64,000 nt of DNA, taken from assembly GCF_014839805.1 (NCBI RefSeq), contig NC_051132.1, positions 2,604,001 to 2,668,000 of the forward strand. Reading direction: 5' to 3'. Numbering within the stretch: position 1 is the stretch's first letter; the number at the start of each line of letters is the position of its first letter. The notes under the pieces were generated by a model that saw nothing but the letters and a program-made list of their open reading frames with translations, was not told where the DNA came from and did no database searches. The translations under genes were made by a program, and so were the position numbers. Positions 844 through 64,000 of the stretch are shown here, piece after piece. The stretch comes from Manduca sexta (lineage: Eukaryota > Arthropoda > Insecta > Lepidoptera > Sphingidae).

Positions 844-984
844 CTAATCGCCCTCCCCGCCGCAGCAATCGTCATCCACCTCCACGCCACACATCTTCAG
901 GACAAACACACAGAGCGACACGCACAGGAGGCATCTTAGGATCTTGCCACAGCTTCCACAATCACAACTGCACGAACAACACAT
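844..984 (-). CDS. Cysteine-rich microprotein A (46 aa), function unknown
   Basis: A complete minus-strand ORF from ATG at 984 to TAG at 844. Twelve of 46 residues are cysteine. It starts MCCSCSC, has a hydrophobic stretch at residues 15-32 rich in Leu, Val and Cys, and ends in an acidic tail. The N-terminal cysteine cluster beside a hydrophobic segment could be palmitoylated or bind metal, and the middle could span or enter a membrane; both are inference. It aligns without gaps to the ORF at 5505-5642: C2, C3, C5, C12, L16, R17, C18, L19, C21, L24, C25, C32 and G33 are identical. That conservation is the reason to call it a gene despite its length. A TATAAA match lies on the same strand about 90 bases upstream. 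I do not recognise the family. Confidence 0.5.
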   Translation of the reverse strand: MCCSCSCDCGSCGKILRCLLCVSLCVFVLKMCGVEVDDDCCGGEGD

Positions 985-1070
985 ATTTTCTGTTTTCTCT
1001 TTGGTTAAAACTTCTTCAAGAGTTTCTTATCGGTCGCTACAATTATTTGTAGCAGATAATATTTTGTTAT

Positions 1071-1076
1071 TTTATA
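1071..1076 (-). promoter_or_regulatory. Possible TATA box for microprotein A
   Basis: TATAAA on the minus strand, about 87 bases upstream of the ATG at 984. The spacing would allow a 5' UTR of about 50-60 bases. Such motifs are frequent in AT-rich DNA, so support is weak. Confidence 0.2.
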
Positions 1077-1259
1077 TTTTGTTTAGACGAGTCAAGCCGT
1101 CCGTTCGTCAAGGCGTGACCACACCTTTTGTGCTCCTTTCCTTGAGCGATAGTGTACTCATTTGTAAAATGACGCATTTGCATGATTCACGCTGGTTATC
1201 ACACGCGTTTACTTTAGCATTTGTTGCGCCTGCGACTTTATTCGTTTAAGAAAAAAATA

Positions 1260-2270
1260 GGAAGATAAGTAATTTATGTATTCATTTACGCAGTTTTTGA
1301 CACATGAAACTTAATATTTGCATACATGGTAAAAATATGTAACAGATGAAAATTATAGATAACGAATTATATTGGTTCCTAAACAGCTTAAAATTAAACT
1401 CATACTGCAGTGGCAAATTGTAGATCAATGATTATCATTTCTGACAATAAGTTGATCAGTAAAAATAGATATGAGATACCAATTTATTCCTGATTGCTAT
1501 TACTCTCACAAGATTATGAAACAACATTTAGCGAACCAGAATTACGGAAATCGATACTTCGGTTCAACGAAAGAACCACTCTATGTACTTTATTTATTTA
1601 TGATTACGTTATCAGTTATCACCTTATCACAGGATACACAAATAAATAGATGTGCGTTTATCTTTATATGTTTGATAAAATTGTGTAATATCTAAGTCTT
1701 TCTGACGAACTATAAAATTGGTGATATTTTTGAACTCAACATTTAGGATAATAAATAAAAAAAATAATACAGGATAAAAAGTTTGTTTTCCGAAACAAAA
1801 TAAGTGTCACCGAGTTTGTCACTTTATATTAAATTAGCATTAAGTAATACCCACCCAGACAAATAAAAATTAAATTGCTGATCTTCAAAGAAAATTGAGA
1901 AAAAGAAGGTTTATTAGGCTCCGATCTGTGGAATGGGGGCGTTTGGAGAATTCCACCACGGTATACCCTTCCTGTCGTAAGAGGCCAATAGAGGCCATCG
2001 GGGGGTTGTCGGCGGGCGGCTGGGGGCCGTCCACCATTAGTGCGTTTCTGTGCGACCTTTACACATCTTCAGTTGACCCCCAGGATGGACGGCAGTGTGC
2101 CCTAGGCCTCATGCTGCCGTTGAGGTCGAGAGCGTCGTTTGATGCGCGGGGGCTTCTAAGACGATTTATTAGGCTAGTTGAACACTTTATATGTCTAAAG
2201 GCTCGCAAGACGGACAGCGTCGCTGGCTGTGTTATTTGCGTTGCCTGTGGATCTTTTTTTTAAACACGTC
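1260..2270. other. AT-rich stretch with a GC-richer patch of unknown origin
   Basis: Mostly AT-rich without coding signal. From about 1910 to 2250 the sequence is GC-richer and open in one plus-strand frame (1895-2263), but the translation has no recognisable domain and the patch abuts a dispersed repeat at 2275. It looks more like an old transposon fragment than a gene. Confidence 0.3.
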
Positions 2271-2274
2271 AACG

Positions 2275-2500
2275 TAACCCCACTGCACCTGATAAGTGGA
2301 GTGGGAGTCCAATAGAATGTCGACTGACGAGATTACTAACTCTCGACAGTCGACACAATTATGCCGGCTTGTTAGAAACGGATATACACAGACTGATCTC
2401 GGAACGCGACACATGGGCCACTATGACCAGTTTTAACTTCTTGTGTACGGTGGTCGCTATCCGGGCGGATATAAAATATATCCTACCATCAGCAAACGAT
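2275..2500 (+). repeat. Dispersed repeat family R2, copy 1
   Basis: Diverged copy of a repeat that recurs at 21985-22250, 32305-32515, 32768-32998 and 36960-37205. Shared signature strings include GTCGACTGACGAG and ATGCCGGC followed by TGTT. It has no ORF of its own and is probably a short interspersed or non-autonomous element. Confidence 0.7.
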
Positions 2501-2751
2501 GATGGTGTGGTCTTGGCTGTTGCGGTACGAATTACTATCACACCCAGACACGCTCTCTGTCTCGCGAGACCTTGCCGAACAAATTATTATCACAGCTTTA
2601 CTGAATTTCGCCAACAAATCTTAGTTTCGTATTCATAGACATAATATAGACTAGAATCTAGTCTAGAAACTATCTAGTTATTGGATACCATATCTAAACA
2701 ATCCTTTAAGCGCGCTGCTGTATTAAACGGCAGATCTAATCTAAAGCCGGT

Positions 2752-2932
2752 ATGTTAATACCGACTTGCCCAGGGTTATGGTTTTTCTTATCAAAAACGG
2801 AAATGATACAGAAATTACTTGCTTTGTTCCGTGCATTCAATGAAATTACGAAGACCGATGAATCATTCAATGATTTAATATGGGAAACTTACCCTATATA
2901 TAGAGCCAACTGTAAGCTTCCGAGTGAATTAG
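2752..2932 (+). CDS. Possible exon of unknown gene (weak)
   Basis: A plus-strand open stretch of about 60 codons with ordinary amino-acid composition that ends exactly at a good splice donor (GTAAGT at 2933). I find no convincing acceptor or partner exon and do not recognise the translation. It may be chance or a transposon remnant. Confidence 0.12.
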
Positions 2933-3598
2933 TAAGTTAAAATAGGAATTGTAAGAATCAATGAGTGCCAGGTCTAAATACCAACTACCGGGGGTGGCGC
3001 GGCCGGTGAGGCATAATACCCTGACTACAGCTCTTCCCTTACCATAGAGTAATGCTACCATCATAAGAAACTCCACTTATCAGGAGTCAGTTGATATACT
3101 AGTATAAATACTTTGAAGCATTAATATTTTATGAAAAGTAATAACTAATAATTACTTCAGCACTTATTTTATTATTTTTTAAATATGGCCTAGTGCATCG
3201 ATCTTTAGATACCTACTTAAATGGTTATGTGAGTAACCTTTGTGTAGATACAATTCGATCAAAAAGGAAAACGCTACAAATCACGTCCTTTGCGGCCTAA
3301 AAGGACCATGAAGGTTGCATTACTTAGCATATTAATTAGAGGTTATAACGTCAAATGTCGTGAAACGTTGAGTCATGATTTTCAAACTAAAATAAACAAC
3401 ACAATGTCAAAGAATATAATGTGTCCGTATAATATTATATAATATAGAGAATGAGCCGGAAGAAATATATCAATAAATCTGCCACTGCATTCTAGAATCC
3501 ATTGCTTTCATAATAGTGCTTAAGTTGTAATTTTAGTTTATTTGAATGCTTTATTGCTGGTTTTATGTGTCATACATGCTGTTGGATGTGATATTATT

Positions 3599-3960
3599 TT
3601 AAGGTGGTAGCTCAAGGTCCATTTTCATACATTTTGTTTCGGCTTTAATCTGGGTAACTAAACAAGTATTGGCAAGTAAAGAATTTAAATTCACGTCTAG
3701 TTAGTGATTAGTTCTCGCAGTTGAAGAAAAATGTAAAATAATTAATAATCATGGATATTTCTGCCTTTAAAATTTCGTCATATTAAATTTTAAAGGCCGA
3801 AATATCCATGATTATTAATTATTTACATTTTTCTTCAACTGCGAGAACTAATCACTAACTAGACGTGAATTTAAATTCTTTACTTGCCAATACTTGTTTA
3901 GTTACCCAGATTAAAGCCGAAACAAAATGTATGAAAATGGACCTTGAGCTACCACCTTAA
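3599..3960. mobile_element. Foldback MITE, copy 1 (362 bp, TTAA ends)
   Basis: Nearly perfect long inverted repeat: two arms of about 165 bp around a short centre. It begins TTAAGGTGGTAGCTCAAGG and ends with the reverse complement. TTAA at both ends fits the target duplication of piggyBac-type transposases, so it may be a non-autonomous piggyBac-like element; that assignment is inference. Related copies lie at 22772-22999 and 38976-39268. Confidence 0.85.
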
Positions 3961-4379
3961 AGGTTCGAGACAAAACTAAAAACGAATATTAAACCATACA
4001 GTCGGGCTACCAATTAGACTTAACAAAAAAATTACTATATCATGCCGAATAAATTAGCGTAATTGGCTTTTAAAGAGCAGATGGATAATACATGGGTTTG
4101 TGTAAGGAAAAATCTGTAACGCAAATCCAATATCTGTAATTACTATTATCTGTATATAAGCAAAAATGTTCCTACTTAATATTATCGTAAGTAATCAACA
4201 TTTTTCTCGGTATCGAATTATATTTTGTATTTATGACAAAGCATTTATTTATGATTGATGACTATTAGTATGAAAGGATAGATATTCCATATCAAATCGA
4301 CTTCAGTTAAAAATAGTTTCATTGCAATTTCTACTTCTGTGAATAAAAACCCAAATTGTGTACAAGTTTATTAACATTC

Positions 4380-5499
4380 TGTAAAACGCTCTTTTTACAG
4401 TAAACATTATATTAGCAAAATAATTACAGAATACAATTTTAGACATTCTTTTTGACAACGTCCAGCCAGAGAGAATAATAATAGAATAGTCGCCGCGTGA
4501 CATATCTTCTCTTCTGCCAGCCTGCCCGCGCAGCCGAATACTTCCGGAAACGCCCGATGTCATCGGCTAGGATAGCGGCGCGTCACATCGGCCATCCTGC
4601 AAAGTGAATACCGTAAGGTATTCACAAAAATAAATTTGAGAAAGTAGAACTGAATTGGGTACCTATATTTTAAACAAATAGGACCCAGCAACACAAATCA
4701 GAATGCTCATGGCTGCACACAGAATATGATCAGAATGCTCATGACTACAGACAATATGATCACAGACAATGAATGACAGAATATGTTCATGGTCACAGAC
4801 AGAATATGATCAGAATGCTTATGGCTACAGACAGAATATGATCAGAATGGTCACGGCTGCAGATAGAATATTATCAAAAGGCTCACGGCCACAGACAGAT
4901 CAGATTAAATAAAATAAACAGTTACGCACGTTCGCATTGTCAGCCTGAAGTGTTGCGCCACTAATTTGACTTCACATGACTCCAGTCATTCCTGTCTCCA
5001 ATGATTTAGTTTCTAAGAAAACACCCTCTCCAGTGAGCCAAGCAGCAGGCATAAAGAAGTTTTTGTTATGAATGTCGTTAATCGTACTAATGTGCAGACA
5101 TCAATTCCATATGCATTCCCAACATATTTACTTCAACAGATGTAGACGTTGCCATGGTAACTAAAAATCTGAGAATCTGGTTATTTTAATTTTGGCATTC
5201 AATGATTCATCACAGATTTATTCCGATAGTTCTCTTCACATTCGAATTCAATGTAACTTCAAATTATCATTTGTATAATCCCACTTCTGAATGTAAAACG
5301 CTCTTTTTACAGTAAACATTATATTAGCAAAATAATTACAGAATACAATTTTAGACATTCTTTTTGACAACGTCCAGCCAGAGAGAATAATAATAGAATA
5401 GTCGCCGCGTGACATATCTTCTCTTCTGCCAGCCTGCCCGCGCAGCCGAATACTTCCGGAAACGCCCGATGTCATCGGCTAGGATAGCGGCGCGTCACA
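4380..5499 (-). mobile_element. Miniature LTR retroelement (TRIM-like), 1.12 kb
   Basis: Two identical 208-bp direct repeats (4380-4587 and 5292-5499) start with TGT and end with ACA. The element is flanked by a 4-bp target duplication, ATTC (4376-4379 and 5500-5503). The 704-bp interior has no ORF for gag, protease, reverse transcriptase or integrase, so the element must have been moved in trans. Identical LTRs imply recent insertion. Minus orientation is suggested but not proven. The interior at about 4698-4900 is a degenerate tandem array. Confidence 0.88.
4698..4900. repeat. Degenerate tandem repeat inside the miniature LTR element
   Basis: Units of about 30-40 bp built around CAGAATATGATCAGAATG and a CTCATGGCTACAGACA-type half, repeated five or six times with substitutions and length changes. 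No coding potential. Confidence 0.7.
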
Positions 5500-5504
5500 A
5501 TTCA

Positions 5505-5642
5505 CTAGTTTTCTTCAGCGAAGTCCTCGCAGATCTCGTCACAGCCACACAGATGACACAGCATGGCACACAGCGTGATGCAGCACAAACACCTGAGACA
5601 CCGCATGCAGATGTCGTTGGAGCCGAAACAACAACAACACAT
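5505..5642 (-). CDS. Cysteine-rich microprotein B (45 aa), function unknown
   Basis: Complete minus-strand ORF from ATG at 5642 to TAG at 5505, with 14 cysteines in 45 residues. It starts MCCCC, has a hydrophobic cysteine-rich segment at about residues 15-32, then an acidic end. It matches the ORF at 844-984 position by position with no gap (for example LRCL at 16-19 in both), so the two look like diverged duplicates. A CACGTG E-box lies about 30 bases upstream of the start. The LTR element at 4380-5499 begins one base beyond the stop codon plus its target duplication, so any transcript must read into the LTR. The ORF itself is intact. Family not recognised. Confidence 0.5.
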   Translation of the reverse strand: MCCCCFGSNDICMRCLRCLCCITLCAMLCHLCGCDEICEDFAEEN

Positions 5643-5649
5643 CGCTAGT

Positions 5650-6743
5650 TGTGTTTACTGCACGTGTGGCTCTTGAGATAGATTTGGTTGTAGTCTAGAG
5701 CGAATGAAAATATTAGTATTATATTTATTGCTATTAATATCTTTATAATGAAACTCATTATTTAAAAGGTAAATAATTAATCTTAGGACTATTTTCTTGG
5801 TTGATAGGTATACTTTGCTAAGAAGTGGATTTCCAGTGGTTATTTGTACCGGTTAATATTGGATATTGAAGTGGCTTCTTGCAAAAACTAAATTTAAATC
5901 TTTTGTGCTATTTGTGTACAAAAGATATAGCATAGAAAACCAAAAGGAGTCCATTTACTTATTTTTAAATGTCGCCTAAACTAGCTTTAGTTGTAATTAG
6001 AATTATTTTCATAACTGGCCATGGTATTGAATTATCCCAGTGTATACAAAAAAAAATGAACAGTGTTTCAACTACTTACCTGTAACTTAAAATGTTTTCT
6101 CTATTCACTAAAATGTTCGGGTCGATATGGATCATGAATTCGCAACAAAACGGTTGCTTTCCTCTGAAATTTTGATGCCTCATTTTTACATTTATTTAGA
6201 AGTGGATCCTTACTTTGACACGTAATGATTGTTAATTGTCATTTTTTATTATAATTTTTTTATCTTTTAGCAAGTCATAATATTCGTTTTGAAGCATGGT
6301 TTGAAGGTTTTATGTATTGTAAGAATGTACTTCGTAAAACCAATATTATGCTTTAAGTATTAATACAATTTCTATTCGCATTTATATCGCTCCTCATGTC
6401 TTTTGCTTTTAATTGATTATAATTCACTTCTCTTTTGCATTTACTTAGATTATGCTGCTGTTACCATAAATATTTAGTGTTACTTAGTGGCATAACCTGG
6501 CTTTTTGCTGCGTGAGGCTGATCGATTTGCCCCACTATTTTAATATTTATTTATTCATAAAATTTCAATAAATTCATTTTGAATTTTACACTTCAAAATA
6601 TTGCGACGCTTGCCATCGGTGTTACAACAGACAGGCTATCGGTCTTTCTACGAACAAAAATCATGCGCCGACGCAACTCTACATTGGAATAGCATAGGAT
6701 AGGGGAATAAAAAACAAATGCGGCAGTAATAATATATTTGATA
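5650..6743. other. AT-rich intergenic stretch, nothing seen
   Basis: Lies between microprotein B and the 3' end of the CAP gene. No ORF, repeat boundary or structural RNA is apparent. Confidence 0.4.
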
Positions 6744-61571: not shown

Positions 61572-62970
61572 CTAGGCGCGGTCGGGCGGCGCGGCGGGCG
61601 GCGCGGGCGGCGACAGCGGCGCGGGCGCGGGCGGCGTCGGCGTGCCGTTGCGCGGCCGCAGCTTGTCCGCGCGCAGCCGCTGCACCGCCTCGCGCATCTC
61701 CGCCGCCAGCGCGTGGTCCGAGCTGTCGATGCGCGGGCGCCGCGCGGGCGGCTCGTCGGGCTCGCCCGCCAGCCGCCGCATCAGGCTCGGCGCCTCCGCC
61801 CCCGCGCGCGTCTCCGTCAACCGCTGCAGCAATGCCGCGCCCGGGCGCTCCAGGCTCGATCGGATGATGCCCTCGAGGAACGAGCCGTTGGTGGGAGGCG
61901 GCGCCTCGTCGCGCAGCCTCCGCATCATGTGCGACGCGTACAGATCGGGCCCCGGGGGCGGCGGGAACCCGGGCGCCGGCCAGAACGGGTAGCCGGTCGG
62001 ATAGCCCGGCGTGTCGGGCCCGTTAAGTCCGTTCGAAAACGGCTTGGTGGCGGGCTTTGGTGGCGGCGGCTTGGGCGGCTGTGGTTTCACCTCTTGCGGT
62101 GGCTTGGGCTCGCGCTTGCGCGGCCTCATGAGATGCCGTTCTTTAACCTTGTACTCGAGCGTAGAGTGCGGCACGCCGTAGTAGGAGCCGGCGCGGTGCA
62201 CCGACATCTCTCCGCGCTGCACGGCCTTCACCGCCTCTACAAGGCTATCTCTGTCGTAGTTCCGGTACTTGCCGCGCTTGGGCCGCGTGCCCTTGCCGCC
62301 GGCAGCCGGCTGTCCGTTGTTGGCGGGTGCCTTCGAGTTACTCGGCATCGCGTAGTTGCGCTGGTTGTCCGGCTGCGTTTTGATGACGGACACATGTCGC
62401 GCGTCCGGCCCGCGCAGGAACTGTAGGTCCGGTTGATGCGATCGGTCGATCGGCTGCTGGAACTTCTGGCTGATGCTCTTGGCGATGACGTCGTTGAGTG
62501 AGGTGAAGATGTGTTGGGTGGCAGGCGGGTCCGCGTACACGCCCGGCAGCAGCATGCTGGGCGAGGGCTGCAGCGGCTGCGGCGGCGGCAGCAGCGGCGT
62601 GACCGGCGCGAGCGGCGCGGCCGCCGGCGAGGGGCTCTTGTCGTCCGGCGGCGGGAACGTGGGTATCTTGAGGATGACGGAGGGCGGCGAGTCGGGCCGA
62701 TCGGCGTCGCTGTCGGGCTCGGAGTCGGGCGGCTCCGCATGTCCGAACTTGCTGACCTTGTTGCGCAGCGTGGAGCGCGGGATGCCGTAGAGCGCGGCGG
62801 CGCGGCGCGTGCCCAGCCGGCCCGCCTGGATGTCGCGCAGCGCGGCCTGCAGCTCGTCGTCGGTGTAGCCGCGCCGCGCCGCGCCCGCCGCCGCGCCCGC
62901 CACCCCCGCCACGCTGTTGCCGGGCGACGCCGACGCCGAGCCCGCGCTCTCCGCGCATGCACGCTTCAAT
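61572..62970 (-). CDS. Eip93F: E93 / Mblk-1 transcription factor, last coding exon
   Basis: The exon begins after the acceptor CTATAG at 62971 and ends at TAG 61572; one leading base completes a codon from the previous exon, which is outside the window. The 465 residues contain two pipsqueak-type helix-turn-helix motifs. The first, at residues 33-76, includes [20 protein letters not shown] and [15 protein letters not shown]. The second, at 231-288, includes [20 protein letters not shown] and [18 protein letters not shown]. The rest is Pro/Ala-rich with a conserved-looking [18 protein letters not shown] between them. E93 is the ecdysone-induced nuclear factor that specifies adult development and autophagy in metamorphosis; the bee orthologue is Mblk-1. 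The upstream CtBP and nuclear-receptor motifs would lie in earlier exons. GC content is very high. Confidence 0.93.
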
Positions 62971-64000
62971 CTATAGACAAACGATTATTGTTAAAATCAA
63001 TAAAAACTAGTGCGCGATATTCCCGATAAGTCGCTGTTATTTTAAGTAAATCGAACCATTACTTGTATTTCATAGATCCAGCTCGGATTGCAACAACTTC
63101 GTGATTACACTATTCACACTATTTGCATGAGTTTGTTTTTAAAATGTGCGGATATTGTATCGGGCATTACAATAAATGGTAGGTACCATTTAGGTTCTCG
63201 ACTAATCAAGTACTAACAAATACATAAGTAGATATATTTGTTTACAACGTATTTTAAATTATCCTGGTTCCAAAGATTCCTCCGTCCTTGTAAATTGTAA
63301 TGTATGCTTATGTGAACAGCATACAACTCAATATCCTTCTAAAATTAACCTTATAATATAAAGCACATAGTTGTGTATTCTTTAAACAGGATAATTCAGT
63401 GCAAATAATCGAGTGCAGCTTAACCGTGAGTCACGGTGGTGCATTTTTCGCCATCCAGGTCAACATCACAGTAAACACGACAATCGCTCAACACCAAACA
63501 TTTCGAAACCGTATTTAATTTCAGATAACGAATTATTTGCGTACGTCAGATAACGGCTATGGAAGCGTCTTTACACCACCCTTGAGATAGCAAAAAACAG
63601 TCGTGTTCCATTTCATTAAAGTTCACAATTGAGCGCGTTCGATTGTCGTCTTCGATTTCATTTTTTAAGTTCTTGTTTTTCGTTGTGCGCGCTATTTTAT
63701 TTTGTACCTAGGGGCTATGTATTTAGGGTTGCAATCCGGTCGCGGGGATGGGAGCGATCTCTGAGGATGCAAGGTCGATGCACCGCCAGTCTATCGGTGC
63801 ATTTTTATTTGTTTTGGCCGAGTCGTGCGACCCACATCTCGGCGGACCGAATGAATTTATTCTGCTATCGATTGGCCATTGTGTATAATATCGGAGACAT
63901 TGGCTTCTTTATGGAAACGCACTGGAGTTGACTGGCTCTATATAAATTGCGTTTTTCTTGTGTTTGCTTTTGTTCTATTTGCCGAAACAAGGGGAGTGCA
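62971..64000 (-). other. Eip93F: E93 intron
   Basis: Sequence upstream of the E93 last exon on the minus strand. AT-rich; no further exon recognised before the window ends. Confidence 0.5.

Follow-up and report, generated by a model that had tools for sequence, protein, structure and literature searches.

Two short open reading frames (ORFs) on the minus strand of a 64-kb stretch of the Manduca sexta genome (C18:2604001-2668000, hereafter the window) would encode cysteine-rich microproteins of similar layout. The two, designated ORF A and ORF B (Table 1), are best read as old, diverged and apparently intronless paralogous genes, unannotated and under purifying selection, the products of which act attached to a membrane; a probability of roughly 0.55 is given to this reading as a whole. 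Homology beyond shared composition, and selection acting on both frames, are supported by computation on the sequences. Membrane attachment is inferred from the layout of the peptides. Whole-genome searches were made against the 470-Mb assembly, and local comparisons used a 264-kb set made up of the window and the 200 kb to its left, which includes a masked stretch.

Resemblance of ORFs A and B

A first-pass annotation of this DNA had proposed a pair of minus-strand ORFs of 46 and 45 codons, and both were recovered at the same coordinates with an ATG and a stop. Length by itself is uninformative, as the 264-kb set holds 746 first-ATG ORFs of 35–70 amino acids (aa). Cysteine content is more distinctive, at 26 % in ORF A and 31 % in ORF B. 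When the ATG ORFs of the window (25–150 aa) are ranked by cysteine fraction, the top three are ORF A, ORF B and a shorter start of ORF B. Among ORFs of 28–120 aa in the 264 kb, only these two reach at least 25 % cysteine, a CA-repeat aside; thus no further member of a local cysteine-rich cluster was found at this threshold in the window and the 200 kb to its left, masked stretch included. The 20 kb to the right of the window contain one unlike ORF with 15 % cysteine.

The peptides align from M1 without a gap and share 15 residues, 8 of which are cysteines: M1, C2, C3, C5, C12, L16, R17, C18, L19, C21, L24, C25, C32, G33 and E44. Fourteen of these had been listed before; E44 is additional. In 50,000 trials in which M1 was fixed and the remaining residues were shuffled, the observed identity was reached at a frequency of 6e-5 when a single offset was scored and 2.8e-4 when the best of seven was taken; keeping composition inside three segments raised the frequency to 0.003. 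The ungapped BLOSUM62 score of the pair is 83, against a shuffled mean of 5.2 (standard deviation 13.5, best of seven offsets), and none of 20,000 shuffles reached 83. The 746 ORFs were also compared all against all over their first 35 residues (277,885 pairs). Here A–B scores 91, non-repeat-like pairs score about 41 or less, and pairs scoring as high as A–B look like repeat copies, both on the author's reading of the listing; a further 88 pairs with at least 24 identities were classed as repeat copies without individual inspection. On that reading A–B is the best of the 277,885 pairs, repeat copies aside. Additionally, by tblastn without composition adjustment ORF B is the top non-self match of ORF A in the 264 kb (E 8e-8), the next being the CA-repeat at 0.014.

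Chance resemblance between two cysteine-rich non-coding ORFs would be the simplest competing explanation. Cysteine-rich peptides of low complexity resemble each other easily, and BLASTP with composition adjustment gives the pair a weak, non-significant E of 0.06 (a single comparison). Other frames share residues too: against 15 in the coding frame, the two remaining sense frames have 9 and 10 and the antisense frames 7 to 9 over codons 1–33, the last of which indicates that part of the A–B resemblance stems from DNA composition. However, the shuffle tests, the all-pairs ranking and the mostly synonymous divergence of ORF B from a third copy described below make chance very improbable.

The flanking DNA had been said not to align, and it does not: 19/60 positions are identical on the 5′ side and 22/60 on the 3′ side, the 3′ flank of ORF B being taken past an inserted long terminal repeat (LTR) element. 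Over the 8 kb examined, the stretches that contain the two ORFs have no other DNA match within the 264 kb at E 1e-6. In the genome search ORF A was placed only at itself. These searches are insensitive, given that query B did not list ORF A and query A did not list ORF B; more distant family members may thus exist.

Selection and a third, partial copy

Between ORFs A and B, identity by codon position (1/2/3) is 17/33, 21/33 and 11/33. Over codons 2–33 the proportion of differing synonymous sites (pS) is 0.91, which is saturated, and that of differing nonsynonymous sites (pN) is 0.42. Unrelated cysteine-rich frames would give similar pS and pN, and the case for A–B homology therefore depends on the shuffle tests. 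Given homology, the pattern fits an old duplication under protein-level selection and is unlike a recent one, as the first-pass annotation had proposed. GC content at third codon positions is 0.66 in ORF A and 0.70 in ORF B, with flanks at 0.31 and 0.34 GC. These values lie above the amino-acid expectation at 36 % GC (p 5e-5 and 1.5e-4) and also at 45 % (0.009 and 0.002).

The genome search with ORF B returned itself and one further place, on contig C12 (E 1.9e-5), which matches B residues 24–45 at 18/22 identities. At the DNA level the match covers 75 bp at 82.7 %. A 21-nt stretch around an AATAAA past the stop of ORF B is the same at 20/21 positions in the C12 copy, after which homology fades; this stretch was picked by eye and includes the TGA that ends the C12 frame, in which a sense codon stands at the position of the B stop. 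From the 75-bp match together with the non-coding 3′ match, it can be argued that the C12 stretch is a true copy. Of the changes in the 21 comparable codons (25–45), 7 are synonymous and 4 alter the amino acid (omega 0.06, Fisher p 1.7e-4); when transitions are given weights between 1 and 8, p ranges from 0.001 to 0.022 and omega from 0.13 to 0.25. The first-pass annotation had called for a comparison of nonsynonymous and synonymous rates across orthologues, and a comparison of this kind was obtained with a paralogue, the C12 copy, in their place. Replacement changes were rarer than synonymous ones, which is consistent with membership of a paralogous family under purifying selection.

The C12 copy comprises 22 codons only, was located by a protein search, which favours a conserved protein, and may be a dead fragment, all of which counts against the main reading. 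A fragment dead since its birth would hold more replacement changes, however, and most of the divergence between ORF B and the copy thus appears to have arisen under selection, acting either on the copy or on its full-length source gene. Separately, a 22-bp DNA match links window positions 6242–6263 to the C12 locus that holds the copy; it is absent from the filtered comparison.

The C12 homology starts at B codon 23/24, immediately behind an AG, as a spliced exon would, and this raises the possibility that ORFs A and B are exons of longer spliced proteins. Both frames are nevertheless open from ATG to stop and align from M1. ORF A is preceded by in-frame stops at 15 and 30 codons, with no second ATG in the 120 nt upstream, and ORF B by one at 5 codons; the M1 at which the alignment begins is thus probably the genuine start in each. 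No first exon beginning ATG-TGY-TGY was found on the plus strand in the 19.5 kb preceding the C12 copy. Proteins of about 64–203 aa in the protein database yielded 10 word-sharing candidates, none with E ≤ 10. The exon explanation is accordingly held to be improbable.

Layout of the peptides and their likely mode of action

Both peptides start with MCC and carry at least 5 cysteines, and no proline or glutamine, among their first 12 residues. The N-terminus of ORF A reads CC-x-C-x-C-x-C-xx-C, an alternating CxC run that is absent from ORF B. Basic residues (K/R14 and R17) stand at the start of the hydrophobic segment in both, and mean hydropathy over 15 residues peaks at 2.74 in ORF A and 2.30 in ORF B, values compatible with a membrane. 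An AlphaFold model of ORF A has one helix, at residues 15–31, with a predicted local distance difference test score (pLDDT) of about 75 in its best block, so a helix in the hydrophobic segment is weakly supported. The shared cysteines 18, 21, 25 and 32 fall on one face of such a helix (P 0.005), in a test that was made post hoc and with the seven cysteines of B 15–33 more spread (R 0.55, P 0.04).

Multiple S-acylation is commonly found where cysteines cluster beside basic residues and a hydrophobic helix of short length, and from this combination a membrane-attached peptide is considered most likely. A helix at about 15–32 would carry cysteines 18, 21, 25 and 32 on one face beside K/R14 and R17. 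S-acyl groups on this stripe and on the N-terminal cysteines (2, 3, 5 and 12), all facing the cytosol, would hold or cluster the peptide at the membrane. The acidic tail would be exposed as the free part that meets a partner.

Besides the points already raised, several observations weigh against this reading. Model confidence is low (pLDDT 58.7 for A and 53.9 for B), the helix of the ORF B model is broken (9–15, 19–32 and 35–44), and 17 residues are few for a helix that spans a membrane. In the 600 nt downstream of ORF A there is no AATAAA, and the variant ATTAAA alone is present, at 143, 268 and 578. A protein-database search at about 25–80 aa returned no homologue, the presence of entries this short being unchecked, and the search at about 64–203 aa described above gave none either.

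Metal binding is the main rival to membrane attachment. Here the cysteines would bind zinc or copper in a metallothionein-like manner, with the hydrophobic residues incidental or packed round the cluster. The cysteine content is in keeping with this, and the N-terminal pattern of ORF A resembles a metallothionein cluster. Insect metallothioneins are alike in size, cysteine content and CxC-like runs such as that in A. They have cysteine clusters without a hydrophobic core, however, whereas the centre of both peptides is strongly hydrophobic, as the hydropathy maxima indicate, and the cysteines that the two share there fall on a single face of the helix. Moreover, the CxC run is not retained in B and neither peptide has a Pfam match. 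A metal-thiolate peptide is on balance unlikely.

A disulphide-bonded peptide that is secreted or lumenal, its residues 1–29 being the signal or signal-anchor, would account for the order of basic residues, hydrophobic segment and acidic cysteine-bearing tail, since a signal and its mature peptide are usually arranged in this way. The shared cysteines, however, precede or sit inside the hydrophobic segment and would be removed or buried, which leaves secretion a poor candidate.

Among known small proteins, the cysteine-rich transmembrane module (CYSTM, Pfam PF12734) is similar in being very small and cysteine-rich around a hydrophobic segment. CYSTM proteins have a polar, Pro/Gln-rich N-terminal half with the cysteine module at the end, whereas A and B have a cysteine-rich N-terminus, an acidic end and no Pfam match to the family profile; neither has a polar Pro/Gln-rich N-terminal half. 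Tail anchoring in a membrane, a further CYSTM trait, is compatible with the hydropathy of the two peptides. Phospholamban/sarcolamban micropeptides are similar in having a short helix marked by a heptad-like stripe, formed in A and B by cysteines 18, 21, 25 and 32, through which assembly in a membrane would be possible. They differ in that A and B have far more cysteine and an N-terminal cysteine cluster, and the likeness drawn here is one of layout. The idea of FAST-like fusion peptides was dropped without a sequence test.

The first-pass annotation had placed the pair in no known family, and as far as searched this held. Scanned against Pfam-A with hmmscan at E up to 10, each peptide matched 0 families, with the proviso that HMMER filters can drop weak matches, and a profile search of the PDB gave 0 matches. 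Protein-database searches, which depend on shared short words, returned no homologue, nor Manduca's own A and B; the ORFs thus seem absent from the protein sets searched. The database does contain moth proteins, as a control search with the E93 exon from the same window named 38 Lepidoptera species among 120 listed of 576 matches. In IMG/VR there were 17 pattern matches, none upheld by tblastn. Among the papers listed by literature searches on small cysteine-rich insect proteins, no title or abstract opening names this layout. Proteins this short are often omitted from annotation, and the absence of A and B is probably due to size.

Genomic surroundings and significance

Table 1. Coordinates of the two microprotein ORFs, the related copy and the adjacent LTR element (window positions unless a contig is named)
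Feature	Position	Strand	Description
ORF A	844..984	-	46 aa, 12 Cys, ATG to stop; N-terminus (1-13) rich in Cys, then a hydrophobic segment with Cys (about 14-33) and an acidic tail (34-46, net -6)
ORF B	5505..5642	-	45 aa, 14 Cys, ATG to stop; layout as ORF A, tail net -6
5′-truncated copy of ORF B	C12:547068-547136	+	Found by genome search with ORF B
Short LTR element between A and B	4380..5499		1,120 bp, two LTRs and a 704-bp middle
LTRs	4380-4587, 5292-5499		208 bp each, 208/208 identical, ends TGTAAA..GTCACA
Target-site duplication ATTC, left	4376..4379		
Target-site duplication ATTC, right	5500..5503		Stop codon of ORF B is 5505-5507
Candidate native polyadenylation signal AATAAA of ORF B	4367..4372	-	8 nt past stop on empty site

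The 4.5-kb spacer between ORFs A and B is occupied in part by a young LTR element, recognized by its identical terminal repeats, TG..CA ends and 4-bp ATTC duplication. Its edge lies five bases past the stop of ORF B (one base and the duplicated target), leaving the coding frame of B intact. Because of the insertion, the candidate native AATAAA of ORF B is now about 1.1 kb from the stop; as the strand now reads, the first AATAAA comes 283 nt after it. The LTR is dispersed in the genome, with 40 places scored among 855 candidates at 99–100 % identity, several of the scored places being paired about 4.7–4.8 kb or 0.9–1.0 kb apart. The middle of the element contains degenerate direct repeats at 32- or 48-bp spacing (4697–4895).

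Each ORF has a single TATAWA in the 600 nt before it (at -92 and -105), for which chance suffices in AT-rich DNA. Also in the spacer, window positions 3598–3961 form an inverted repeat with perfect 140-nt arms and an 84-nt centre, the centre itself containing a 40-nt inverted repeat that is 98 % complementary; this is either a fold-back element or an assembly artefact.

To the right of the microproteins, on the same (minus) strand at about 21.3–42 kb, is an attractin-like gene with Pfam attractin (two frames) and EGF domains, its 3′ end being placed near 21.3 kb on the author's reading of the frames. Pfam returned nothing in the two frames read as the attractin tail, nor in two frames of the left neighbour. 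An E93/Mblk-1 exon with HTH_psq domains is located on the minus strand at 61575–62984 and is 100 % identical to a Manduca sexta protein.

A broader proposal can be put forward tentatively: that A and B belong to a moth- or hawkmoth-restricted family built on a new plan (N-terminal cysteine cluster, cysteine-striped helix and acidic tail), attached to the membrane through multiple S-acylation, long preserved by selection and missing from the protein database searched. If the genes are real, protein-coding genes are missing from the searched protein sets even for a well-studied insect. The motif M-C-C-x-C, L-R-C-L-x-C-x-x-L-C, C-G and an acidic tail could then be sought in other moths, with the clear prediction that the peptides are S-acylated and membrane-bound. 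The young LTR element beside the stop of ORF B would additionally offer a natural test of how displacement of a candidate polyadenylation signal affects expression.

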